A DNA stretch of 54,888 nucleotides, from positions 1 to 54,888 of the IMG/VR virus record IMGVR_UViG_3300027848_000027. The stretch is one strand, 5' to 3'. Position 1 is the first letter of the stretch. Each line of letters begins with the position of its first letter. The position numbers were made by a program, and so were the translations under genes. The stretch is from a virus. The notes beneath the pieces were generated by a model. That model was not told the origin of the DNA, searched no databases, and worked only from the letters and a program-made list of their open reading frames with translations. This document shows positions 1-54,253 of this stretch, piece after piece.

Positions 1-1902
1 GGTTATGACGAATTAGTTTACTCTGCAGACGATGGAGGATTTGATTATTCAGGAGCACCAATTGCTGCATCTTCATTAATTGACACATTATCATATTGCA
101 AGCCTGCTGATACTACTTTAGTATTCACAGCAGTTACTGCTAACACTATTGCTGAATCTACATTTTTAGCTGGAACTGGAATTGCACTAGGAGAAACTAG
201 AGTAATTACAGGAGGTACTAACGTATATATTATCGGAATGGAAGATTCTAAAGTATACGATGCGTATTCTAAAGGATTTATTAGAAATGGTGATATCATC
301 AATGATGGTACAAACCAATATTATTTAAAAGTAGAATATGAATTAACTGTAACGGTTGGTTCTAACGACTTGAAATATATAAAAGTATTCGCTTATTCTG
401 ATATCTCATTAATCAACCAAATAGATATTAATTTCTATACAAATGGTTCTAATGAGTACATTCAAGTTGAACCACTTAAATCTGGTGAATTCAAAAGAAT
501 ATTTGATTTAACCGACACAAACTTCTTCACTGATTACTCAGTATCACAACCTAACGTTGTTATGTTGGGAATAAATACTGCAATTCCTGCTAATAAAGCA
601 ACAGTTGATGAATTTATTAAGGTAAATCATTATATTAAAGGTAAAGTTGTTGGAGATACAAGAGATAGACTATTGAAGATTATCTCAGTAACGTCTTCTC
701 AACAATTATCACCTGCTAGATTGGAATATGTTATTACTACAATGGCACCAACAGTTGATGAAATTAGCGGAATTGATGCTACTGGTAATACACTTCAAGT
801 TTTAAAAGGAATTTCAAACTTCGCTGGAGAACTTAGAGGACAATACTTAAAAGGATTCAAAGTGAGAGATGCTTTATTACCTAACTCAACTGCTGCAAGA
901 CAAAATGAGATATTAAGTTACTTATTTGATTATACATCTATTCCTCAAGCATTAGCTGGAAAAGAAGTAATTGATTTCAGATACGTTGTAGATACATACG
1001 AGGGAGAAGTTTCTTCTGCTAGTAAGTACTACCTATCTAAACTTTGTGCACTACATGGTCAATCTATGGCCTTACTTAATGCACCTTCAATTAAGCAATT
1101 TGAAAAATCAGTAGATCCTAGCTTTATCGATACGACTAACAAGTTGATCGCAGCTAGACATATTGCAACTGGAGGAGATTTAGATTTAAATCCTAGCTTC
1201 ACGTTTAAATTCGCAGAAGAAGATGTAAATGGATCTCCATTGGCATCGTACTCGATGTTCAACTTCCCTAACTTAATTATAAGAAATGGAAATAGAAATA
1301 TCTCAGTACCACCCGCGGCATACATCTCTAACTTGTATGTTAGAAAGTTTAAAAATGGTCAACCATTCTTAATCGTAGCTGGTGGAAAAAGAGGAGTTAT
1401 TACTGATCCAGAATTAGTTGGAGTAGAATATGAACTTACTGACGAAGATAGAGCATATTTAGAGCCAATTGGACATAATTTGATAGTTAAGAGAAGAGGA
1501 TTTGGAACATTGTTATTCTCGAATAACACAGCTTACCAAAGAATTAACTCAGCACTTAACAATGCTCACGTTAGAGATAACCTTTCTACAATCGAAAGAG
1601 ATTTAGCTAGGATCTTATTCAACTTCTTGTTTGATTTTAACGATGAAATTACAAGACTAAGAGTTAAGACGATAGTTGAAAACTATTTAGATGCGGTAGT
1701 TAGTGCAAGAGGATTAAGCTCATACGCGGTTACATTCGATAAGAGTAATAATAACCAAGAGGTAATCGAAAACAACGCAGCAATAATTGATGTTGAAGTT
1801 GATTTCCCAAGAGGAATCCACAAATTTATTAATAGAATTACTATTACTAGAGTTGGAGGAGGATTAAGTTCAGAATCTACTGGATTTACACCAAGCTTCT
1901 AA
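1..1902 (+). CDS. Tail sheath protein (T4 gp18-like), 5' end outside window
   Basis: The frame is open from base 1, so the gene is 5'-truncated by the window edge; 633 residues remain. The sheath is the contractile outer tube of a myovirus tail. The C-terminal 250 residues have the phage sheath pattern: a VPPAAYISN segment, a conserved RRGFGTLLFSNN stretch, a helical region (residues near 520-560 of the visible part) and a final strand with DVEVDFPRGIHKFINRITI, matching the order in T4 gp18. A hairpin terminator follows 49 bases after the stop. Bases 1-90 reappear in inverted orientation at 47266-47355, with a further partial copy at 47227-47269. Family assignment is confident; the gene-start position is unknown. 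Confidence 0.85.
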   Translation, partial: GYDELVYSADDGGFDYSGAPIAASSLIDTLSYCKPADTTLVFTAVTANTIAESTFLAGTGIALGETRVITGGTNVYIIGMEDSKVYDAYSKGFIRNGDIINDGTNQYYLKVEYELTVTVGSNDLKYIKVFAYSDISLINQIDINFYTNGSNEYIQVEPLKSGEFKRIFDLTDTNFFTDYSVSQPNVVMLGINTAIPANKATVDEFIKVNHYIKGKVVGDTRDRLLKIISVTSSQQLSPARLEYVITTMAPTVDEISGIDATGNTLQVLKGISNFAGELRGQYLKGFKVRDALLPNSTAARQNEILSYLFDYTSIPQALAGKEVIDFRYVVDTYEGEVSSASKYYLSKLCALHGQSMALLNAPSIKQFEKSVDPSFIDTTNKLIAARHIATGGDLDLNPSFTFKFAEEDVNGSPLASYSMFNFPNLIIRNGNRNISVPPAAYISNLYVRKFKNGQPFLIVAGGKRGVITDPELVGVEYELTDEDRAYLEPIGHNLIVKRRGFGTLLFSNNTAYQRINSALNNAHVRDNLSTIERDLARILFNFLFDFNDEITRLRVKTIVENYLDAVVSARGLSSYAVTFDKSNNNQEVIENNAAIIDVEVDFPRGIHKFINRITITRVGGGLSSESTGFTPSF

Positions 1903-15372: not shown

Positions 15373-16983
<1,611 letters not shown>

Positions 16984-24778: not shown

Positions 24779-26440
24779 TTACCAACTTCCTGAAGATCCT
24801 CCACCTCCTGAAGATCCTCCTCCAAATCCTCCAAATGATGATCCTCCACCGAAGCTACTTCCTGACGAATATGATGACGATGAATATGAATTTCTACGTT
24901 GACGTGCTCTTCTTTCTTCCTCTTCCTTTTTTCTTTTCTTTCTACGTCTTTCGTCTTCCACGTCTTGGACGTCTTGCTCTGCTCTATTTTTAGCACTAGT
25001 AAGTGCATATAGAAGAGATACTAATAGGGCACCGGATACTAATATATTTCCCTTTGAATAATCTGGAGAATATTTTAAGATTGCTTCTTCTGCCTTTTTA
25101 GCTTTCGACTTAGTTGATGATTCAACATCTGAATGATTCATTGCGGAATTCATAGATTTGATTCGATCCGCAATCTTAGGAAATTCACTTTGAATATTTG
25201 ATTTAACACTTTCAAACTCATATAGATGATTCTTATGCTTACTCAATGTTCTACTTGCAGCCTCAATTGATGTTTGACATGCATCATATTCTGCATCAAG
25301 TAGTCTTATTTTAGAAATTTCCAAGTTAGCATCTATTTCCTCTGCATGTTTCTCAGCAAGAGATAAATACTTAAGGACAGAATCTCGATAGAATGGAATA
25401 GAATATTCATGATTCATGTTATACACAATGAATTTTTCCATATCAGCATTAATTGATGTAATGTCTCCTTTTGAAATATTAGCTTTTGAAAATCTAGTAA
25501 TCTTATCTAATCTTTCGTATTCATCGATATATTGAGAAATTTTTGAGAGTTCATACTCACATTGGTCACTGATAATACTTCTTATATTCTGAACAGCTTC
25601 TAACGTTAATGGTTCGTTAGTTAATAATGTAAGTTGAATTTGTTTTAATGTACGATGCATTTCACTAAAATCTCTAGTTTTATCAAGTGATACTAGTTTA
25701 GATAATCTATTTTTAAAATTCTCAACCTTTGATTTATTAGACTCATCAATTTCATTAATTTTAAAAGCAAGTTCTTCAGCTTCTCTTATTAGTCGTTTAT
25801 GACGTCTTACTGAATATCCAATAACTATTGCGATGGTTAAAATAAGTCCCAGTACCATTAATACATCAAGAGTAGTCGACCATGCTTGTGCTCTCCATTC
25901 TGCATCCTTAGCTGCTTGAATTTCAGCGGCAGCTTTTTCATCGGCTGCTATCTGATCTCGTTCAGCCCATGAGTTAGTCCCGAGTTTATTTATGAATGTA
26001 GTTATTAGTGGATCTATTCCGCCGTAGTAGTCATTTTCTTTGAAGTGTTCTGGGAGTACATGTTCTGCTTCTACTTTAGTATAACCATCGGATAGCCATT
26101 TTTCTAGTCCATATCCAACTTCAGTTCTCCACTTTCTTTCGTTTGGGGCAACTAGTAACATTAATCCATCATTTCGTTCGCTACTTCCGATTCCCCATTG
26201 ATTAAATAGATCGTTGGTAAATCCTTCGACGTCTCGACTATTTAATGATTTAACTGTTACAACTGCTATTTGAATTTCAGTTGACTTTTCAAAATCTGAT
26301 ATCTTTTTATTTAGATCAGCCTCCTGTTTATCACTTAATACATTAGCAAAATCGTTTACGTAATTATGGTAATGTAGTTTGTCCTGAGCAAATGTTAATG
26401 TTGATACAAAAACAATAGCAATTAATAATAAATTTTTCAT
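24779..26440 (-). CDS. TPM-domain membrane protein (YgcG/Psb32 family) with coiled-coil insert
   Basis: This 553-residue exported protein has a signal peptide ending TFA|QD (about 18), then a TPM domain (about 25-150; YVNDFANVLSDKQEADLNKKI … NDGLMLLVAPNERKWRTEVGYGLEKWLSDG). A transmembrane helix follows (191-212), then about 250 residues of helical coiled coil, a second hydrophobic helix (near 468-488), a basic R/K-rich run and a Ser/Gly tail (FGGGSSGGGG) typical of the family. TPM proteins often pair with LemA, as here: its ATG overlaps the LemA stop (TAATG). The function of TPM domains in bacteria is poorly known; the long coiled coil is unusual. An envelope-acting phage protein is inferred. 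Confidence 0.85.
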   Translation of the reverse strand: MKNLLLIAIVFVSTLTFAQDKLHYHNYVNDFANVLSDKQEADLNKKISDFEKSTEIQIAVVTVKSLNSRDVEGFTNDLFNQWGIGSSERNDGLMLLVAPNERKWRTEVGYGLEKWLSDGYTKVEAEHVLPEHFKENDYYGGIDPLITTFINKLGTNSWAERDQIAADEKAAAEIQAAKDAEWRAQAWSTTLDVLMVLGLILTIAIVIGYSVRRHKRLIREAEELAFKINEIDESNKSKVENFKNRLSKLVSLDKTRDFSEMHRTLKQIQLTLLTNEPLTLEAVQNIRSIISDQCEYELSKISQYIDEYERLDKITRFSKANISKGDITSINADMEKFIVYNMNHEYSIPFYRDSVLKYLSLAEKHAEEIDANLEISKIRLLDAEYDACQTSIEAASRTLSKHKNHLYEFESVKSNIQSEFPKIADRIKSMNSAMNHSDVESSTKSKAKKAEEAILKYSPDYSKGNILVSGALLVSLLYALTSAKNRAEQDVQDVEDERRRKKRKKEEEERRARQRRNSYSSSSYSSGSSFGGGSSFGGFGGGSSGGGGSSGSW

Positions 26441-43813: not shown

Positions 43814-46800
43814 ATGCCAGTAAGAATAAATTTAAAGGAGCTTTTTGGAAGCGACTCACAGACTATAACAGTAGACAAATTAAATTTCAACTTTAATAAA
43901 CTATTGGAACTTGGAATTGGACTCGAAGGAGTCAAAGGAGTAACAGGTGGAACCGGTTCAATTGGTCCATCTGGTATAAAAGGAGACCAGGGAGATAAGG
44001 GAAATCAATGGTTCGTTGGAACATCAGATCCAAACGCAACAACTTTCCCTGGATTAATGGATGAAGATTTCTACGTTCTATCTGATAACAGTCAAATCTG
44101 GCAATATGACGAGTTAACTAATACGTGGAATATTATCGTTGATTTAGGTGGAATAGTAAATAACTACTTAAATACTGCAGGGACTACATTCGTAAGAGGA
44201 TTTGGAGAAGGATCTCCACAGGATTCACGATATATCATGTTCCCAAATAGAGGTAATTCAATAACTGACCAGCAGGGAGATAAAATAGGAGCTGGAGTAA
44301 CTGACAATGATATATTAATGTTAAGTAACTTTAATGAGACACTTCAAGGCTTAGTATTAGACATAGATAATGATTTATCAGATACTGATAAATATTATAC
44401 AGCTATTCAAAAGATCTATGTAGATAGATCAAATTCAATAGATAAAAGATATCACCTTGAATTAGGATCACTAAATGATGTAGGATCAACAGGTTCTCCG
44501 TTTGAATTATCAACACTTAATCAGAATTTAAAACTTAGACATGAATATAAAAATGGAATATTCAACGGAGTATTCTCATTGACTAAATTAGAATCAGCAC
44601 CAATCGGTGGTATTCTACATAATGGGTTATTTGATTTTCAATTTGCTAAATTTAACGCATCAGGTCCAACTGTTCAAAGGGAAGGATTTGTTCAAATGGG
44701 ATCTAGATATTCACACCTAGCAATGGGAAGATCGTATGTTGAATTTGATGGAATTAACTTCAATGTATCAGGAGTTGGAAATGGTGGTATCGGTATTGGT
44801 GAAAACTTCAATAATGTACTTCCACATATAAATGGAAATAGTTATCTAGTTCTTAAAACTGACGATACCGGAGTAAATGGAATAATGTTAGATACTGATG
44901 TTTACCAAGACAATGGAAACATCGAACAATTAGGAACAGGACCCGTATCTGTAAACACAGCTATTGGATCTGGTATTGCTAATTCAGCACTTGGAAATCT
45001 TACATATGGATTAAATGGAATTGCTATATCTGGAAACAGAGTAATACAGGCTGGCGGATCTACATCAATCGCATATCCTGCAACTAATTTAAATGATGCA
45101 GGGTTCGAAGGTTATATGTTCGTTAGCGATATAAACAATTCTAATTCTCCAATTAATGTATCAAGTCAATTATTCACAGGTAAAAGTGCTGATATTTCAG
45201 GAATAATACCAGTTGGGGCTGCAATTAGCGATATTGCAGTAAATGGAGAGTTACTATACCTAATCACTAATCAACAATCGGGTGTTCAAAATGATATAAC
45301 CGTTGGATCAAACGTATATAATAGAACTAATTTTCAAATCGTAAGATTTGATACAGATGTAGCATCTGACTTTACCTCAGTATTCCAGACTAGAATAACT
45401 AGTTTAGACGGAGCACATAGAATAAAACTAAATGGAGGTAGAGCAATTGTAGCAACTAATCACCTTAGAAGTTGGGGAAATCCTGCTGAAAACGCAATAA
45501 ATTCTCAATATGAACATGATGGATATATAACTTCTGTTAATATAACCAATGAGCAAACACCGATCGTTGTAGCATCTAAGAATACAGATAGAATGCACCA
45601 CCTTGATCTAGAAGTGGCTAATAATAAAGCATATACTATATCTATAGAATTTAATCCACCAGTTGGAGTAAATCACCCAGGATTCGGCGTTTCAGTTAGA
45701 TCATTTGATTTAGATAATGCAATTGGAACTGAATCATCATATAATATCGTTGCACCTAATACGGTAAACATTAATAATGCTAATCATAATAACTTAACAT
45801 CTATTAATAAGTTTGGTGCGATAGCTGTATCTGGAGATATTATCTGGGCAGTTCATAAAAACATATTATATACTTTAAAACAAGATTCGGTATCTGGATC
45901 ATTTACACCACTTAATATTTTAGCATATAATATTGATGATAATATCAGAGCGATGGATATTGAAGTAGTTGGAGAATCAATATATGTACTATGTGCATCT
46001 GGTAATCCAACGATGGCATACTCTCCTACTAATACACATATTGTTAAAATTAATAAACGCGAAGTATCTAGTCCGGTTATCATTAGTAAGACAGATATTA
46101 ACGAACCTTCATCTTCTAGATTAATAATAGAAGGGAACAATATATATGTTAATAAGACAAATGGAAATACTGGATATTTAATACCTATTGAGATCGATGG
46201 ATTTAAATCAGATGCTATAAAAATAGGATCAATTAAATCAACATGTGCAAATATAACTAATGATTTAAAGGTTGGTAATAACCTTAATGTCGGTCAATCA
46301 GTTAATGTAGGAAAAGGTGGAATTAAAGCAATTGGTCCAATTGCATCTGGAATAGTACTTACTAATTTATCTGGTATCAATAAGACAATTACTGAATTAA
46401 ATCTAAATCCATTTAGTTTACAAGTAAGTGGTAATATGTTAATGCATAATACTCACGTTACCGGAACTACAAAACTTCACTTTAACTCTACTGCCTCTTC
46501 TAGAAAAACTGAGGTGATAAATTTATCTCCGAATGGCAGCCTAATGTTTAAAGCTACTCCTAATTATATTACTGAAAATAATCCAGCAGATTTAGCAACG
46601 CTAAGTATTATTGGAGGAGGAACGAATGGCATTTATATGTATACGCCAGATTCTACTACAGTTGATTTAGTTGGCGATATAAAAATTAGACCGGGTGATA
46701 CTACTATACCACTAGATTTTCCAATAGCAGGTCAACCACCATATTACAAAGAAGGAGTTATTGTACTTGAAAGACGAGTACAAATGGTAAATTCATTAGA

Positions 46801-47311
46801 GATTGGAATAGGTGGAAATTTTGCTAATACATTTAATCTTGGTACGCTATGGATGAGACGTACTGAAAGTTCAGGAAACTGGGCATCTGGTACATATAAT
46901 ACAAATATTGCACAATTATCTAAACCATATGATAGAATTATACGGTTTCAAGCAAGTGGAGTAGGTGGTACTCCTCCTGGTAAATTAATGGTATGGATGG
47001 AAAATACACCAGGATCGGGGAGCATGACAATTGCAGGTCTAACAGGTGGATGGCACCTTACTAAAAAGATGATGTTTGATTCAGACATGGTGGAACAAAT
47101 AATAATACCATCATGTCACAGATTCTATATAGAAGTAGGTTTGGGTATTTCAAATGGATGGACTAATAATTTTAAAATAAGTCAATATCGGTTTGGAAAA
47201 CTAGATGGAGGATGTAATGGAGCAGGTAATGTGTCAATTAATGAAGATGCAGCAATTGTTGCTCCTGAAGTGTCAATTAATGAAGATGCAGCAATTGTTG
47301 CTCCTGAATAA
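43814..47311 (+). CDS. Tail fibre protein with collagen-like segment and chimeric C-terminus
   Basis: This 1165-residue protein starts with a docking-like domain (MPVRINLKELFGSDSQTITVDKLNFNFNKL). A short collagen-like Gly-x-y run follows (about 37-60; GLEGVKGVTGG, GPSGIKGDQGDKGNQ), then beta-rich repeats resembling a propeller or shaft (400-800) and a distal domain (TRRTESS…FGKLDGGCNG). Its last residues do not look native: from about 1139 on they are VSINEDAAIVAPE twice, encoded by the antisense strand of an inverted tail-sheath fragment containing a 39-bp tandem duplication. The ancestral C-terminus is therefore replaced or truncated. Receptor binding is the likely role. Confidence 0.7.
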   Translation: MPVRINLKELFGSDSQTITVDKLNFNFNKLLELGIGLEGVKGVTGGTGSIGPSGIKGDQGDKGNQWFVGTSDPNATTFPGLMDEDFYVLSDNSQIWQYDELTNTWNIIVDLGGIVNNYLNTAGTTFVRGFGEGSPQDSRYIMFPNRGNSITDQQGDKIGAGVTDNDILMLSNFNETLQGLVLDIDNDLSDTDKYYTAIQKIYVDRSNSIDKRYHLELGSLNDVGSTGSPFELSTLNQNLKLRHEYKNGIFNGVFSLTKLESAPIGGILHNGLFDFQFAKFNASGPTVQREGFVQMGSRYSHLAMGRSYVEFDGINFNVSGVGNGGIGIGENFNNVLPHINGNSYLVLKTDDTGVNGIMLDTDVYQDNGNIEQLGTGPVSVNTAIGSGIANSALGNLTYGLNGIAISGNRVIQAGGSTSIAYPATNLNDAGFEGYMFVSDINNSNSPINVSSQLFTGKSADISGIIPVGAAISDIAVNGELLYLITNQQSGVQNDITVGSNVYNRTNFQIVRFDTDVASDFTSVFQTRITSLDGAHRIKLNGGRAIVATNHLRSWGNPAENAINSQYEHDGYITSVNITNEQTPIVVASKNTDRMHHLDLEVANNKAYTISIEFNPPVGVNHPGFGVSVRSFDLDNAIGTESSYNIVAPNTVNINNANHNNLTSINKFGAIAVSGDIIWAVHKNILYTLKQDSVSGSFTPLNILAYNIDDNIRAMDIEVVGESIYVLCASGNPTMAYSPTNTHIVKINKREVSSPVIISKTDINEPSSSRLIIEGNNIYVNKTNGNTGYLIPIEIDGFKSDAIKIGSIKSTCANITNDLKVGNNLNVGQSVNVGKGGIKAIGPIASGIVLTNLSGINKTITELNLNPFSLQVSGNMLMHNTHVTGTTKLHFNSTASSRKTEVINLSPNGSLMFKATPNYITENNPADLATLSIIGGGTNGIYMYTPDSTTVDLVGDIKIRPGDTTIPLDFPIAGQPPYYKEGVIVLERRVQMVNSLEIGIGGNFANTFNLGTLWMRRTESSGNWASGTYNTNIAQLSKPYDRIIRFQASGVGGTPPGKLMVWMENTPGSGSMTIAGLTGGWHLTKKMMFDSDMVEQIIIPSCHRFYIEVGLGISNGWTNNFKISQYRFGKLDGGCNGAGNVSINEDAAIVAPEVSINEDAAIVAPE

Positions 47312-47508
47312 TCAAATCCTCCATCGTCTGCAGAGTAAACTAATTCGTCATAACCATGTCCAACAATATCAATTCTATGCGTATCTACTTCAATATCATT
47401 AAATGCCGTATTCTCAAGATCCATAAGATCTAATTTATCAGCATCGATAGCACACATTATTCCAGTTGTTGGGAATGACCTATTAACTAATCTAGAGAAT
47501 CTAGTATA
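47227..47508 (-). pseudogene. Inverted partial copy of the tail sheath gene
   Basis: The reverse complement of 47266-47355 matches bases 1-90 of the window (inside the sheath gene) with one difference (C58 to A, Pro to Thr). Homology at the fibre side ends at 47227. On the other side, the minus strand stays open in the sheath frame back to about 47508 (…FSRLVNRSFPTTGIMCAIDADKLD…), presumably sheath sequence that lies upstream of the window start. The fragment has no start of its own in sheath context and would encode about 90 sheath residues. It overlaps the fibre C-terminus. It could be a real duplication-inversion or a chimeric read/assembly join. Confidence 0.85.
47231..47308 (+). repeat. 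Tandem duplication of 39 bp at fibre C-terminus
   Basis: Two identical 39-bp copies (47231-47269 and 47270-47308) lie within the inverted sheath fragment. Each encodes VSINEDAAIVAPE in the fibre frame. Both carry the base that differs from the sheath copy at base 58, so duplication followed the divergence. Confidence 0.9.
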
Positions 47509-47531
47509 TCAATAATCATTAGCTAAGTTAT

Positions 47532-48335
47532 TTAAATTAAAGATTTCATCGTGAATGGTAATACTCGTTCCTGATTCAGGAGAGTATATAATTCTGATAG
47601 AATCCCAGGTTCGAACTTAACACCCTTTGTAATTCCTTTACTAAACGTTAATGTTGACGAGACAGCTGATGCTAATTTATCATTGTCCATTTCCTCATTC
47701 ATAACTACGAATAATACATTCTGCTCTGGCTCCATTGTTAATAGATCAGGGTTACCACTCTCTACTACGGCGTCATGTATTGCATTTTCTCGTATTTCAT
47801 CAAGGGTTATCGTAATCACATGAGTTAATTTATGGCCAAACTTATATCTTCTATCCATTTTAAGCTTCCATATATCATAGTCCATATCTCCTTTCTTATT
47901 TAGAATGATAAATATTTCTCGTTCCCTATGTAGACCTGGATTTTTGAAATGTGATTCAGTACATTCTAATAGATCTAACATTGAATCTAAATAATCCAAC
48001 ATTAGTCCAGTCAATAAGTAATTAGCACTTTTGAATATCTCTACTAGATCTTCTGGCATTTGATATAATTTTCTTAAATGATCTCGTATCACCATCAATT
48101 TAGGGTCGTTCCATATAGGAGTCATGTTAAAATTAAACATACTTCCCTCTACTGCCAAATTATTAAGATTTAGTGCATGGAATAGTATTTCGTAGAAACT
48201 TGACGTATCTCCATCATCTAGTCTTTTTCTATATTTTTGATTTGCGGCAAGTAGAATATACTTAGAATATTCTGGATCAATTCCATGATTTCCTTTAGTT
48301 ATCCATATCGGATCTAATATGTGTGAATTACTCAT
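47532..48335 (-). CDS. Protein of unknown function, isolated minus-strand gene
   Basis: This 267-residue protein (MSNSHILDPIWITKGNHGIDPEYSKYILLAANQKYRKRL…) appears mixed alpha/beta. A helical N-terminal half (about 20-130) is followed by strands and helices (REREIFIILNKKGDMDYDIWKLKMDRRYKFGHKLTHVITITLDEI, ~135-185; NVLFVVMNEE, ~207). I recognise no family and see no signal peptide. It is the only minus-strand gene inside the tail block and shares a divergent late-promoter region with the next gene, so it is likely a late gene too. Confidence 0.6.
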   Translation of the reverse strand: MSNSHILDPIWITKGNHGIDPEYSKYILLAANQKYRKRLDDGDTSSFYEILFHALNLNNLAVEGSMFNFNMTPIWNDPKLMVIRDHLRKLYQMPEDLVEIFKSANYLLTGLMLDYLDSMLDLLECTESHFKNPGLHREREIFIILNKKGDMDYDIWKLKMDRRYKFGHKLTHVITITLDEIRENAIHDAVVESGNPDLLTMEPEQNVLFVVMNEEMDNDKLASAVSSTLTFSKGITKGVKFEPGILSELYTLLNQERVLPFTMKSLI

Positions 48336-48344
48336 TTTAAAAAA

Positions 48345-48368
48345 TTATGCTTTTTTATTATTTATTCT
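48345..48368 (-). promoter_or_regulatory. Late-promoter-like motif, left arm of divergent pair
   Basis: The minus strand reads AGAATAAATAATAAAAAAGC followed by ATAA, 10 bases before the ATG at 48335. It mirrors the plus-strand copy at 48403-48426 almost base for base. Confidence 0.6.
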
Positions 48369-48402
48369 ACCGAATAAACACGGTTCAGTTTACCAAAATA
48401 TT

Positions 48403-48426
48403 ATGAATAAATAATAAAAAGCATAA
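48403..48426 (+). promoter_or_regulatory. Late-promoter-like motif, right arm of divergent pair
   Basis: The plus strand reads ATGAATAAATAATAAAAAGC followed by ATAA, 12 bases before the ATG at 48438. Together with the left arm it forms an inverted repeat of about 22 bp with a 35-base spacer, so two divergent genes share one duplicated control element. Confidence 0.6.
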
Positions 48427-48437
48427 AATTCAACCAG

Positions 48438-50588
48438 ATGGCTAATATAACGCTTAAACTATTAATAAATCCAGAAAAAAATTCTTTAACATTTAGTAGA
48501 AATTATAGAATTTTCTCAACAGTTGACCCAGTTAAAAATATTACTGGATTTACTGATATGGTTGAAGACTTGATCTTAAGCTCACCAAGTACTGTAGATT
48601 TAAATAAATTAAAAAGATACTTTAGATATTCTAGAAATAAACTAGATTGGTCATTATGGTATGATGTTGAACCTGGTAATTTAGGAGAAGCTGATGATAT
48701 TATACTTGAGGAAAAACAAGACTTTTATTTTGAGATAAAGTATGAATATGACGATGGTACTAAAAATGAAATTGGATCAGTAATTGAAATCAATGAAATT
48801 AAGCTAAGATTTGCAGACGCAAGTGGTGTAGCAAATACATATGCTCCTGTTGTAATTAGCTCAGATGAATTTAATAACTCGTTAATTTTAAATGATGAAC
48901 CTGGTTTTAAACCATACCAAGTTGATAGTGCACTTGGAATGTTTAAAGAACTTTCATTTTATACCAATAAGATGTTTGGACATGAAGTTGTCTATTTCAG
49001 AACACTTCCAGAATCAGATAGTGGAGATTTTATATTCAAAGAATGGACTCTATTTAAAAACGTAGATCGTAAAGCAATTAAAGTTCTCGTTCCAAAGAAT
49101 GCATTTCCAAGTAACGATCCTAAATATACAGAATATGGACTTGATTTTCAAGCTCCATTTGAGATACACATAGATCATAGATATTTTCAATCTGAGTTCG
49201 GAAAAGGATCTCACCCTAGACACAGGGATTTTTTATATTTTCCACTACTAAATAGAATGTATGAGATTGCAGGAACTTATCTACATAGAGGATTTATGAT
49301 GGAACAAACATATTGGAAAGTTAATCTACAAAAATATAATCCTAATGTTGATATGCTATTAACTGATGATTCTAGGACATTCTTAGATAACGTTATTCAG
49401 TCAGCTGATGAACTATTTAGTGACGTAGTTGAAGATGATACAAAGGATGCTACAATGCCTCAACAATATAATACGATCAGTAATAGATTTGATCCGTCTA
49501 GAAGTGCAATACATCCAGACTTAAGAATCAGACCTTTGAAATATAATTTCAATCATTCTAGTCTAATTGAGAATTACTACGACTTAAGTGCTATTGTTTC
49601 ACAGGTATCAACTTTCGAGATCACTCAGGATGTTGTTCCTACTAGAACAAGTATCAATGTTGAAACTCTGCCACATATCAATGGCGGGATCCCTAGGGAC
49701 TATGATGTGATATTAGCATATCAGGATTCTGGACCATATAAATATTGGAAAAACAACGCTCTTATTACAACTGATAAGAATGTATCTGGTATTGATTCAA
49801 AATACATAAGAGTTAGAGGTCCTATTGATTCTATACCGAATCATGATGAGTATCCTGACGCTGGTCGCTATGTTAGAATTGAAGCATATAAGGATCTTTC
49901 ATTCACTAAGCAACGAAACATTATGCATGGAGTAGATACAAATGGAAAGGACGTAGTGAATTTTAAAATAAGAGAAGCATCAATCATTTATAATGCAGTT
50001 CCAATATTTGATAAAGATACTAATTGTAATATATCATATACGTCAATGTTCAACTTAAATAGTGGAAGTGACGTAGTTCAGTTTATAAATGGATATGATA
50101 ATGAATCATCAAAGGGTATTAGGATATCTGGGGAATTTATCAAGTATACTGGAAACACTGATCTTGGTGACTTTACAATCAATATTTTATTAAATGATAA
50201 TCCCAAGACGTTTACAATTAATAATTTTAAAAGTGGACAGTGGTACTCAGTTGTAGTATCTGCATCTAATGAATTCAAACAATGTGGAGTATACATTTAT
50301 TCAATATTAGAAGACGTCGCAGATTTGTCAAATCATACCGATTTTGTAAAAGTGTTCGAGAACATATCATCTATTCCAGAATTAGAATTTAATTTAACTG
50401 GAGAAAATTATTACATTCCATCTTCTAATATGTGGATATCAAATATTAGATTGTTTAAAACTATGATACGTGAAGAAGAACACGATTTTATATTAAGCCA
50501 ACAATATTTAAAGGATGAATCTAAATTATTGATAATTGATAATTGTAAACAACAGGTTAATCTTCCTTATATTGCTAAAAATAGATAA
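48438..50588 (+). CDS. Large tail-associated structural protein
   Basis: This 716-residue protein has an N-terminal region with beta strands (ITLKLLINPEKNSLTFSRNYRIF), a middle domain (about 150-330; FKPYQVDSALGMFKELSFYTNKMFG … RHRDFLYFPLLNRMYEIAGTYLHRGFMMEQTYWKVNLQ) and a C-terminal jelly-roll-like part (about 515-700; SYTSMFNLNSGSDVVQF … GQWYSVVVSASNEFKQCGVYIYSI) resembling laminin-G/concanavalin-like sandwiches. The last could bind sugars. It sits upstream of the gp15-like and tube-fold genes, so a neck or baseplate location is plausible. No T4 counterpart can be named. Confidence 0.6.
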   Translation: MANITLKLLINPEKNSLTFSRNYRIFSTVDPVKNITGFTDMVEDLILSSPSTVDLNKLKRYFRYSRNKLDWSLWYDVEPGNLGEADDIILEEKQDFYFEIKYEYDDGTKNEIGSVIEINEIKLRFADASGVANTYAPVVISSDEFNNSLILNDEPGFKPYQVDSALGMFKELSFYTNKMFGHEVVYFRTLPESDSGDFIFKEWTLFKNVDRKAIKVLVPKNAFPSNDPKYTEYGLDFQAPFEIHIDHRYFQSEFGKGSHPRHRDFLYFPLLNRMYEIAGTYLHRGFMMEQTYWKVNLQKYNPNVDMLLTDDSRTFLDNVIQSADELFSDVVEDDTKDATMPQQYNTISNRFDPSRSAIHPDLRIRPLKYNFNHSSLIENYYDLSAIVSQVSTFEITQDVVPTRTSINVETLPHINGGIPRDYDVILAYQDSGPYKYWKNNALITTDKNVSGIDSKYIRVRGPIDSIPNHDEYPDAGRYVRIEAYKDLSFTKQRNIMHGVDTNGKDVVNFKIREASIIYNAVPIFDKDTNCNISYTSMFNLNSGSDVVQFINGYDNESSKGIRISGEFIKYTGNTDLGDFTINILLNDNPKTFTINNFKSGQWYSVVVSASNEFKQCGVYIYSILEDVADLSNHTDFVKVFENISSIPELEFNLTGENYYIPSSNMWISNIRLFKTMIREEEHDFILSQQYLKDESKLLIIDNCKQQVNLPYIAKNR

Positions 50589-52741: not shown

Positions 52742-54253
52742 TTATATTTCGATAAACCACGCAGTTATGTTAGGACTAGGTATTCCCGTACCATTACAAT
52801 AGAACGAAATTTTATCTCCTGCATTGATCAGTATATTTAATCCTGATGCGAATCCACTATCGGATGAAAATATTGATAGGGATCCGGCATTCACTCCATT
52901 TATATGAACCTCAGCATCCCATGTTTCTACTCCGTCACAACTAGCACTAATATCAGTTATTTCACATTTGAATGTAGCAATATAAGGAGACGTATTAGTA
53001 AATACGTTACCGACTCCTATTAAATATATATTAGTCGTATTGTTATTATTTCCAGCAGACCACGTCCATGTTTTACGCGGAACAGGATGAACGAGCGGAG
53101 AAGATACCCATAATCCAGAAGATCCTGCATATATTAGTATGTCTCCATCGTTTGGTGTATCTGCATCAACATCTGATAATTCACTAAGTAACATAATAAT
53201 ATCAACTGTTACATACTTATCGGGTGATTCAATAATTGAGAATTTCTCACTAAAATCTAAATGTTCAATATCTGCATCTCCAACTACTATTCCATTTGAT
53301 AATATATCATATAATGTTCCTGGATTAGATGGACCACCGGTTGATGATATTGTAATATCACTTGCTAGAGTTCCGCCATTATCTACAATTGAAATTGTCG
53401 TATTTGCTCCTTCTATAAAATTTAGTATTCCTCTTGTTGATATTAGAGAACCTGCTTTCTTAACTTTAATAGGCGGTGATACTGCGTTCGCTTCTAGTGT
53501 ATTTGCAATATCATCATATGTCCAATCTATAGTTGCAGTATTCTGAATGAGAGCCGATACTCTATCATCTACTCTTTCATTTGTAAAATATAAATTTGAT
53601 CCTTCTGATAAGTTAGTTGTTGAAAATGGAGTTAGTGAAATATTTCCAGTTAATGTATTAGCCGGATCGTTATATGTCCAAGTTAAACCCGTACCATTTT
53701 TAATAAGTACCGCAACTCGATCATCGATTACTTCTGTTGTAAAATATTTATTAGTTGCACCTTCAATAAGATCATCCGTATTAAACGGAGATAAAGAAAT
53801 AGTAGGAGTTAATGTGTTTGCCGGATCGTTATACGACCATGATATTCCTGTACCATTCTGTATTAAACTCGACACTCTGTCGTCAACTCTTTCGTTAGTA
53901 TAATATAGACTAATACCTTCAGCTAAGTTAGTTGTAGAGAATGGAGCAAGTGACACATTTCCAATTAAGGTATTTGCAATATCATTATATGTCCAAGTTA
54001 AACCCGTACCATTTAATATCAAAGACGATACGCGATCGTCAACTCTTTCGTTTGTGAAATATAAATTTGAACCCTCGGTTACTCCATCGGTTGTGATGGC
54101 TAATGTTTCTGGATCTGCCCACGTTACGTTACCAACACCGTCCGTTACCATTACGAATCCATATGATCCATCTGATGTTGGCAGAGTATATGAATTAGCT
54201 ATTTCTAGGAATCCTTTGACTGATAAGTTTGTATATGTCTTAGTTATTTTCAC
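52742..54253 (-). CDS. Fibre/virion protein built from four ~52-residue repeats
   Basis: This 503-residue protein starts at GTG (GTG AAA ATA ACT). After a short N-terminus with VMVTDGVGNVTWADP, four tandem repeats (about 58-258) of the form EGxNLYFTNERVDDRVSxLIxNGTGLTWTYND, then ANTLxxxxSLxPF, follow. Repeats of this NLYFTNERVDDRV type are known in phage virion fibre proteins. A beta-rich region (about 270-400) leads to a C-terminal domain (KTWTWSAGNNNNTTNIYLIG … FYCNGTGIPSPNITAWFIEI) resembling a compact attachment or decoration domain. A fibre for tail or head is likely; the N-terminal partner cannot be named. Confidence 0.7.
   Translation of the reverse strand: MKITKTYTNLSVKGFLEIANSYTLPTSDGSYGFVMVTDGVGNVTWADPETLAITTDGVTEGSNLYFTNERVDDRVSSLILNGTGLTWTYNDIANTLIGNVSLAPFSTTNLAEGISLYYTNERVDDRVSSLIQNGTGISWSYNDPANTLTPTISLSPFNTDDLIEGATNKYFTTEVIDDRVAVLIKNGTGLTWTYNDPANTLTGNISLTPFSTTNLSEGSNLYFTNERVDDRVSALIQNTATIDWTYDDIANTLEANAVSPPIKVKKAGSLISTRGILNFIEGANTTISIVDNGGTLASDITISSTGGPSNPGTLYDILSNGIVVGDADIEHLDFSEKFSIIESPDKYVTVDIIMLLSELSDVDADTPNDGDILIYAGSSGLWVSSPLVHPVPRKTWTWSAGNNNNTTNIYLIGVGNVFTNTSPYIATFKCEITDISASCDGVETWDAEVHINGVNAGSLSIFSSDSGFASGLNILINAGDKISFYCNGTGIPSPNITAWFIEI
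53480..54082 (-). repeat. Four coding repeats in fibre gene
   Basis: About 156-bp units encode YFTNERVDDRVSSLI-type blocks; the third diverges (YFTTEVIDDRVAVLI) and the fourth is shortened and lacks the NGTG turn. The nucleotide sequences have diverged, so the repeats are old, not a fresh duplication. Confidence 0.8.

Follow-up and report, generated by a model that had tools for sequence, protein, structure and literature searches.

An inverted copy of an internal tail-sheath segment at the 3' end of a tail-fibre gene in an IMG/VR virus record

The tail-fibre gene in the window, by which we mean the whole stretch of DNA analysed here (54,888 nucleotides), ends inside a 270-base insert, nearly all of which is a reverse copy from the middle of the tail-sheath gene. 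We consider it likely that the insert is real and that one templated insertion, of recent date, produced it in this phage genome. If genuine, it would offer a clean natural case of templated insertion in a large T4-like phage, in which the source, the target and the empty site can each be identified, and would show antisense sequence rebuilding the end of a gene in a single step. General understanding is unchanged by it; an ordinary, recent and near-neutral insertion is most likely, not a new kind of system. The features concerned are listed in Table 1.

Table 1. Positions of the insert, its parts and the genes around it (window coordinates)
Feature	Position	Strand	Remarks
Whole virus record IMGVR_UViG_3300027848_000027	54,888 b		classed linear
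Tail-sheath gene, 3' two thirds	1..1902	+	633 codons; 5' end off contig; PHROG tail sheath E 3e-55
Tail-fibre gene	43814..47311	+	1165 codons; ORF; PHROG tail-fibre matches
Inverted copy of internal sheath-gene segment	47227..47494	-	open in sheath frame
Insertion, 270 bases	47231-47500 (equivalently 47228-47497)	.	AAT/AAT on flanks
Perfect tandem duplication, 39 bases	47231-47269 + 47270-47308	.	repeat family D3; inside insert
Right junction	47495..47515	+	GAG, then probable old fibre end AAT CTA GTA TAT CAA TAA (N-LVYQ*), fibre frame
Convergent neighbour gene	47532..48335	-	267 aa; intact

The inserted segment and its source in the sheath gene

Self-BLAST aligned window bases 1-86 with the reverse complement of 47270-47355 at a single mismatch in 86 (98.8%, E 1e-36), and bases 59-90 with 47258-47227 as a 100% inverted match. 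Bases 1-90, which are the overlap between the contig's sheath fragment and the insert, match twice because the inserted copy carries the 39-base tandem duplication. A preliminary description of this DNA had reported that bases 1-90 recur in inverted form as one block at 47266-47355; the inverted recurrence was confirmed, and the single block gave way to two matches once the duplication, which had been missed, was recognized. The view that the copy reflects either a recent event or an artefact was upheld. The one difference in 86 positions is at base 58 (in sheath sense), which is A in both tandem copies and C in the window's sheath. Positions 47270-47494 have 80-83% DNA identity to the sheath of the relatives L003 and L004. 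Homology to the relatives' sheath gene stops at about 47494, and the sheath reading frame, previously followed to about 47508, takes in the junction and old fibre sequence over its last part.

The full sheath open frames of relatives comprise about 990 codons, of which the copied segment corresponds to about codons 311-387, numbers that are arithmetic from open-frame lengths and good to a few codons. The segment is thus internal to the sheath gene, and the contig begins inside that gene, so that window bases 1-90 do not represent the beginning of the sheath gene, contrary to the first description. The source sheath is kept at window 1-90 for the overlapping part; the remaining source lies off the contig and is present once in the relatives' sheaths. 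The visible sheath fragment of the contig is uninterrupted. By protein match, the sheath segment occurred exactly once each in 27 of 28 relatives and not in the remaining record, by which the possibility of an insert conserved in relatives was rejected. When the copy was inspected for residue decay, an unusual Ser (RSFPTTG) was found also in several relatives, and the codon containing base 58 was variable.

The first 57 bases of the contig are identical to the insert copy and base 58 differs. It is therefore very probable that the repeat caused the contig to end at base 1, as had been suspected earlier; a graph assembler using a word of 57 bases would leave 57 identical bases followed by a difference at a fork. 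Since the contig starts at the fork point of the repeat, both copies were probably present in the assembly graph and reads of both would have existed. The assembled path includes the insert, and insert-bearing molecules were therefore probably not rare. A single repeat can in this way end a viral contig.

The end of the fibre gene and the site in relatives

The last 26 codons of the fibre gene and its stop (47231-47311) lie within the insert and encode GN, then VSINEDAAIVAPE twice, then the stop. The preliminary description was correct that the antisense strand of the sheath encodes the final residues of the fibre protein. Only the last codons were replaced, the gene losing about 4 residues (LVYQ) and gaining 26. 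The neighbour that converges on the fibre gene shares, over its residues 1-267, protein identities of 80%, 79% and 68% with the relatives L081, L082 and L084, respectively. Because the sheath fragment is uninterrupted and the neighbour intact, only the fibre gene received sequence, and the proposal that two essential tail genes had exchanged sequence could not be upheld. A reciprocal exchange or a 47-kb inversion was ruled out by a relative that is collinear on both sides. The AlphaFold model of the last 333 fibre residues had a mean pLDDT of 31, too poor to use, and a promoter and terminator scan gave nothing beyond chance, with no terminator signal and no promoter excess.

The collinear relative is the 138.6-kb IMG/VR record IMGVR_UViG_3300026097_000011, which has about 80% DNA identity to the window and matches its order to the left and to the right of the insert. 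Position 79970 of this record is the counterpart of window base 1, and the alignment runs beyond 54 kb, with local gene-content differences mainly at 18-28 kb. BLAST alignment to it is interrupted between 47229 and 47529, two points separated by about 30 bases in the relative, and the alignment to L081 breaks in a similar manner. The insert is absent from both relatives with an alignable junction (L082 and L081), and in both of them the fibre stop adjoins the stop of the convergent neighbour. Their fibres end in short tails beginning GNL, namely GNLPIPIGPISGI in L082 and GNLPLAL in L081. The comparison with the sheath and fibre genes of relatives, which had been proposed as a check, thus places the source inside the sheath gene and finds no insert in L082 and L081.

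When 270 bases are taken out of the window sequence between the AAT triplets, a fibre ending GNLVYQ* results, like the GNL tails of the relatives. We infer from this an empty site in which GGTAAT would be joined directly to CTAGTATATC. Going by the reading frame, 47498-47515 would be the old end of the fibre gene; the frame-0 translation past the insert reads ...ENLVYQ*. At the left junction, both the fibre (GGTAAT) and the complementary strand of the sheath (TAATGTG) contain TAAT. On the right, GAG separates CTAATCTA, with which the sheath copy ends, from AATCTAGTATATC, and a short imperfect repeat there would mark where copying came back to the fibre. The shared sequence amounts to about 4 bases on the left and, on the predicted empty site, at most 7 on the right.

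Exact searches of IMG/VR returned no record with the predicted empty site and no match to the junctions, the fibre flank or the source segment. A search with the 3' part of the fibre gene recovered one relative, already known, and none in genome contigs; phage records matched neither the DNA of 46000-49500 nor the fibre protein. The window has no other such inverted pair, and near-identical inverted pairs of at least 40 bases between separate sites were absent from about 1.4 Mb of related-virus loci, a set made up of loci of at most about 22 kb, in which distant pairs within one genome are mostly missed. The event appears to be private to this record, because no comparable pairs are present in the relatives' loci and the sheath segment is single in 27 relatives. 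With no comparable inverted copies in 1.4 Mb, it is a rare kind of event in this virus group. As a separate observation on fibre ends, the gene that converges on the neighbour in L084, near 6681, has a different C-terminus (charged and coiled-coil-like by eye) from the window fibre; judging from this C-terminus, the 3' part of the fibre gene seems to be exchanged between relatives.

Origin of the insert

A templated insertion could have proceeded as follows. The event would start while the 3' end of the fibre gene was being replicated or a break there repaired, and a 3' DNA end ...GGTAAT would pair with TAAT on the opposite sheath strand, the template being either the sheath 47 kb away or the one carried by a sister genome within that cell. 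Synthesis would then copy about 229 bases of sheath, one slip giving the 39-base duplication, before it came back to the fibre close to TAATCTA and left a short imperfect 9-base repeat. As the outcome, the last 4 residues of the fibre (LVYQ) would be replaced by 26 antisense-coded ones, while the sheath and the neighbour would stay unbroken as far as the contig shows. A template-switching polymerase or templated break repair is suggested because of the short shared sequences, the 39-base slip and the fact that the copy comes back to where it left. The contig is 95% coding, and the insert, lying between two convergent stops, occupies a dispensable place where it may well be near-neutral. The base-58 difference, present in both tandem copies, would not be expected for a freshly copied molecule of the same clone; it suggests either another variant or time elapsed after the insertion, a strain mixture in the metagenome also being possible. 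Some observations weigh against a templated insertion. Neither the junctions, nor the predicted empty site, nor the species recur in any other record, comparable inverted copies are lacking in the 1.4 Mb of relatives' loci, and the GAG filler leaves the right junction partly unexplained. Moreover, recombination between the arms of an inverted repeat of about 230 bases, 47 kb from each other, could flip the segment and disrupt the sheath gene, so that low stability would be expected.

An amplification chimera, in which phi29 polymerase (multiple-displacement amplification, MDA) or PCR switched templates in the tube and the genome itself has no insert, is a less likely alternative. In the study of Lasken and Stockwell 2007 (PMC1855051), 85% of MDA chimeras were inverted, with 2-21 complementary bases at most junctions, and the inverted segment with short complementarity at a junction is typical of them; the restriction of the insert to one record, in a group otherwise without such repeats, also fits. 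However, 337 of 406 inverted chimeras in that study joined segments less than 10 kb apart, and MDA chimeras are described as a single join of two segments with an intervening deletion (PMC1855051), whereas the insert lies 47 kb from its source and its molecule leaves and returns to the same site, giving two junctions there. Further points against a chimera are the base-58 difference between the insert and the contig's sheath, which a strain mixture could explain as well, the position of the insert in one of the few harmless places of a densely coding contig, and the fact that the assembler kept its path. An assembly misjoin, with no real molecule carrying the junctions, is very improbable. The contig does end inside the repeat, where the assembler must have struggled, but the bases shared at the two junctions are far below the usual assembly word length, so that a graph assembler needs reads across the junctions, and an alternative pairing at a collapsed repeat would need a 47-kb inversion that breaks the sheath, contrary to the collinear relative. 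We also give little credence to selection of the insert, either as a functional new fibre tip from overprinted antisense or as a trans-acting antisense RNA that tunes sheath production. The extreme fibre end is variable among relatives, and in a read-through transcript of the fibre gene, about 230 bases would be able to pair with sheath mRNA; against this stand the occurrence in one record only, the scan without terminator signal or promoter excess, and a predicted structure that is uninformative.

As a templated insertion, the event resembles class 2 templated sequence insertions (TSI) and MMBIR-type events in being a short copy of a distant locus of the same genome without mobile-element hallmarks, and probably in its microhomology and few filler bases. 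Class 2 TSI have microhomology or short filler at their junctions and no target-site duplication of at least 5 bp, and several papers describe templated insertions of similar anatomy in human cells (PMC5110952; PMC2621351, PMC8421209). In the window, the distant source keeps its own copy over the overlapping part, and the site is empty in L082 and L081; the left junction has TAAT and the right one GAG filler plus AAT/AAT, as read against the predicted empty site. Unlike the events in human cells, among which class 2 is partly RNA/cDNA patches, the insert is in a phage and its mechanism is deduced from one allele. The variable repeats of diversity-generating retroelements are likewise copied repeats at the 3' end of tail-fibre genes. 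The insert shares this placement but is without adenine-specific differences, and its source is a structural gene 47 kb away; with one mismatch in 86 between the copies, not many adenine differences, such a retroelement was rejected. No reverse transcriptase was found among the 18 window proteins scanned, many smaller ORFs lying outside the scan and the contig being a fragment.

The proteins of the window, including a tail sheath, a ribonucleotide reductase, GroEL, a single-strand binding protein and a T4-type neck protein that scored just below the Pfam cut-off, point to a large T4-like myovirus, and the record is probably a fragment. The sheath has only distant similarity, among annotated phages, to the sheaths of phages of Flavobacterium and Tenacibaculum and of uncultured huge phages, and a host among the Bacteroidota is a guess from this similarity. 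A GroEL-type chaperonin and a TPM-domain protein are encoded at 15373-16971 and 24779-26440. Between 18000 and 27600 there are many small gene-content differences from the collinear relative, the alignment being nearly continuous elsewhere. Just past the sheath gene, at 1951-1978, a 28-base inverted repeat (86%) followed by T's is a possible terminator. Two diverged tandem copies of 258 nt, 72% identical and 315 apart, lie at 53495-54067 inside the minus-strand ORF 52742-54253, whose best PHROG match is a structural protein; these repeats cross-match in the relative likewise.
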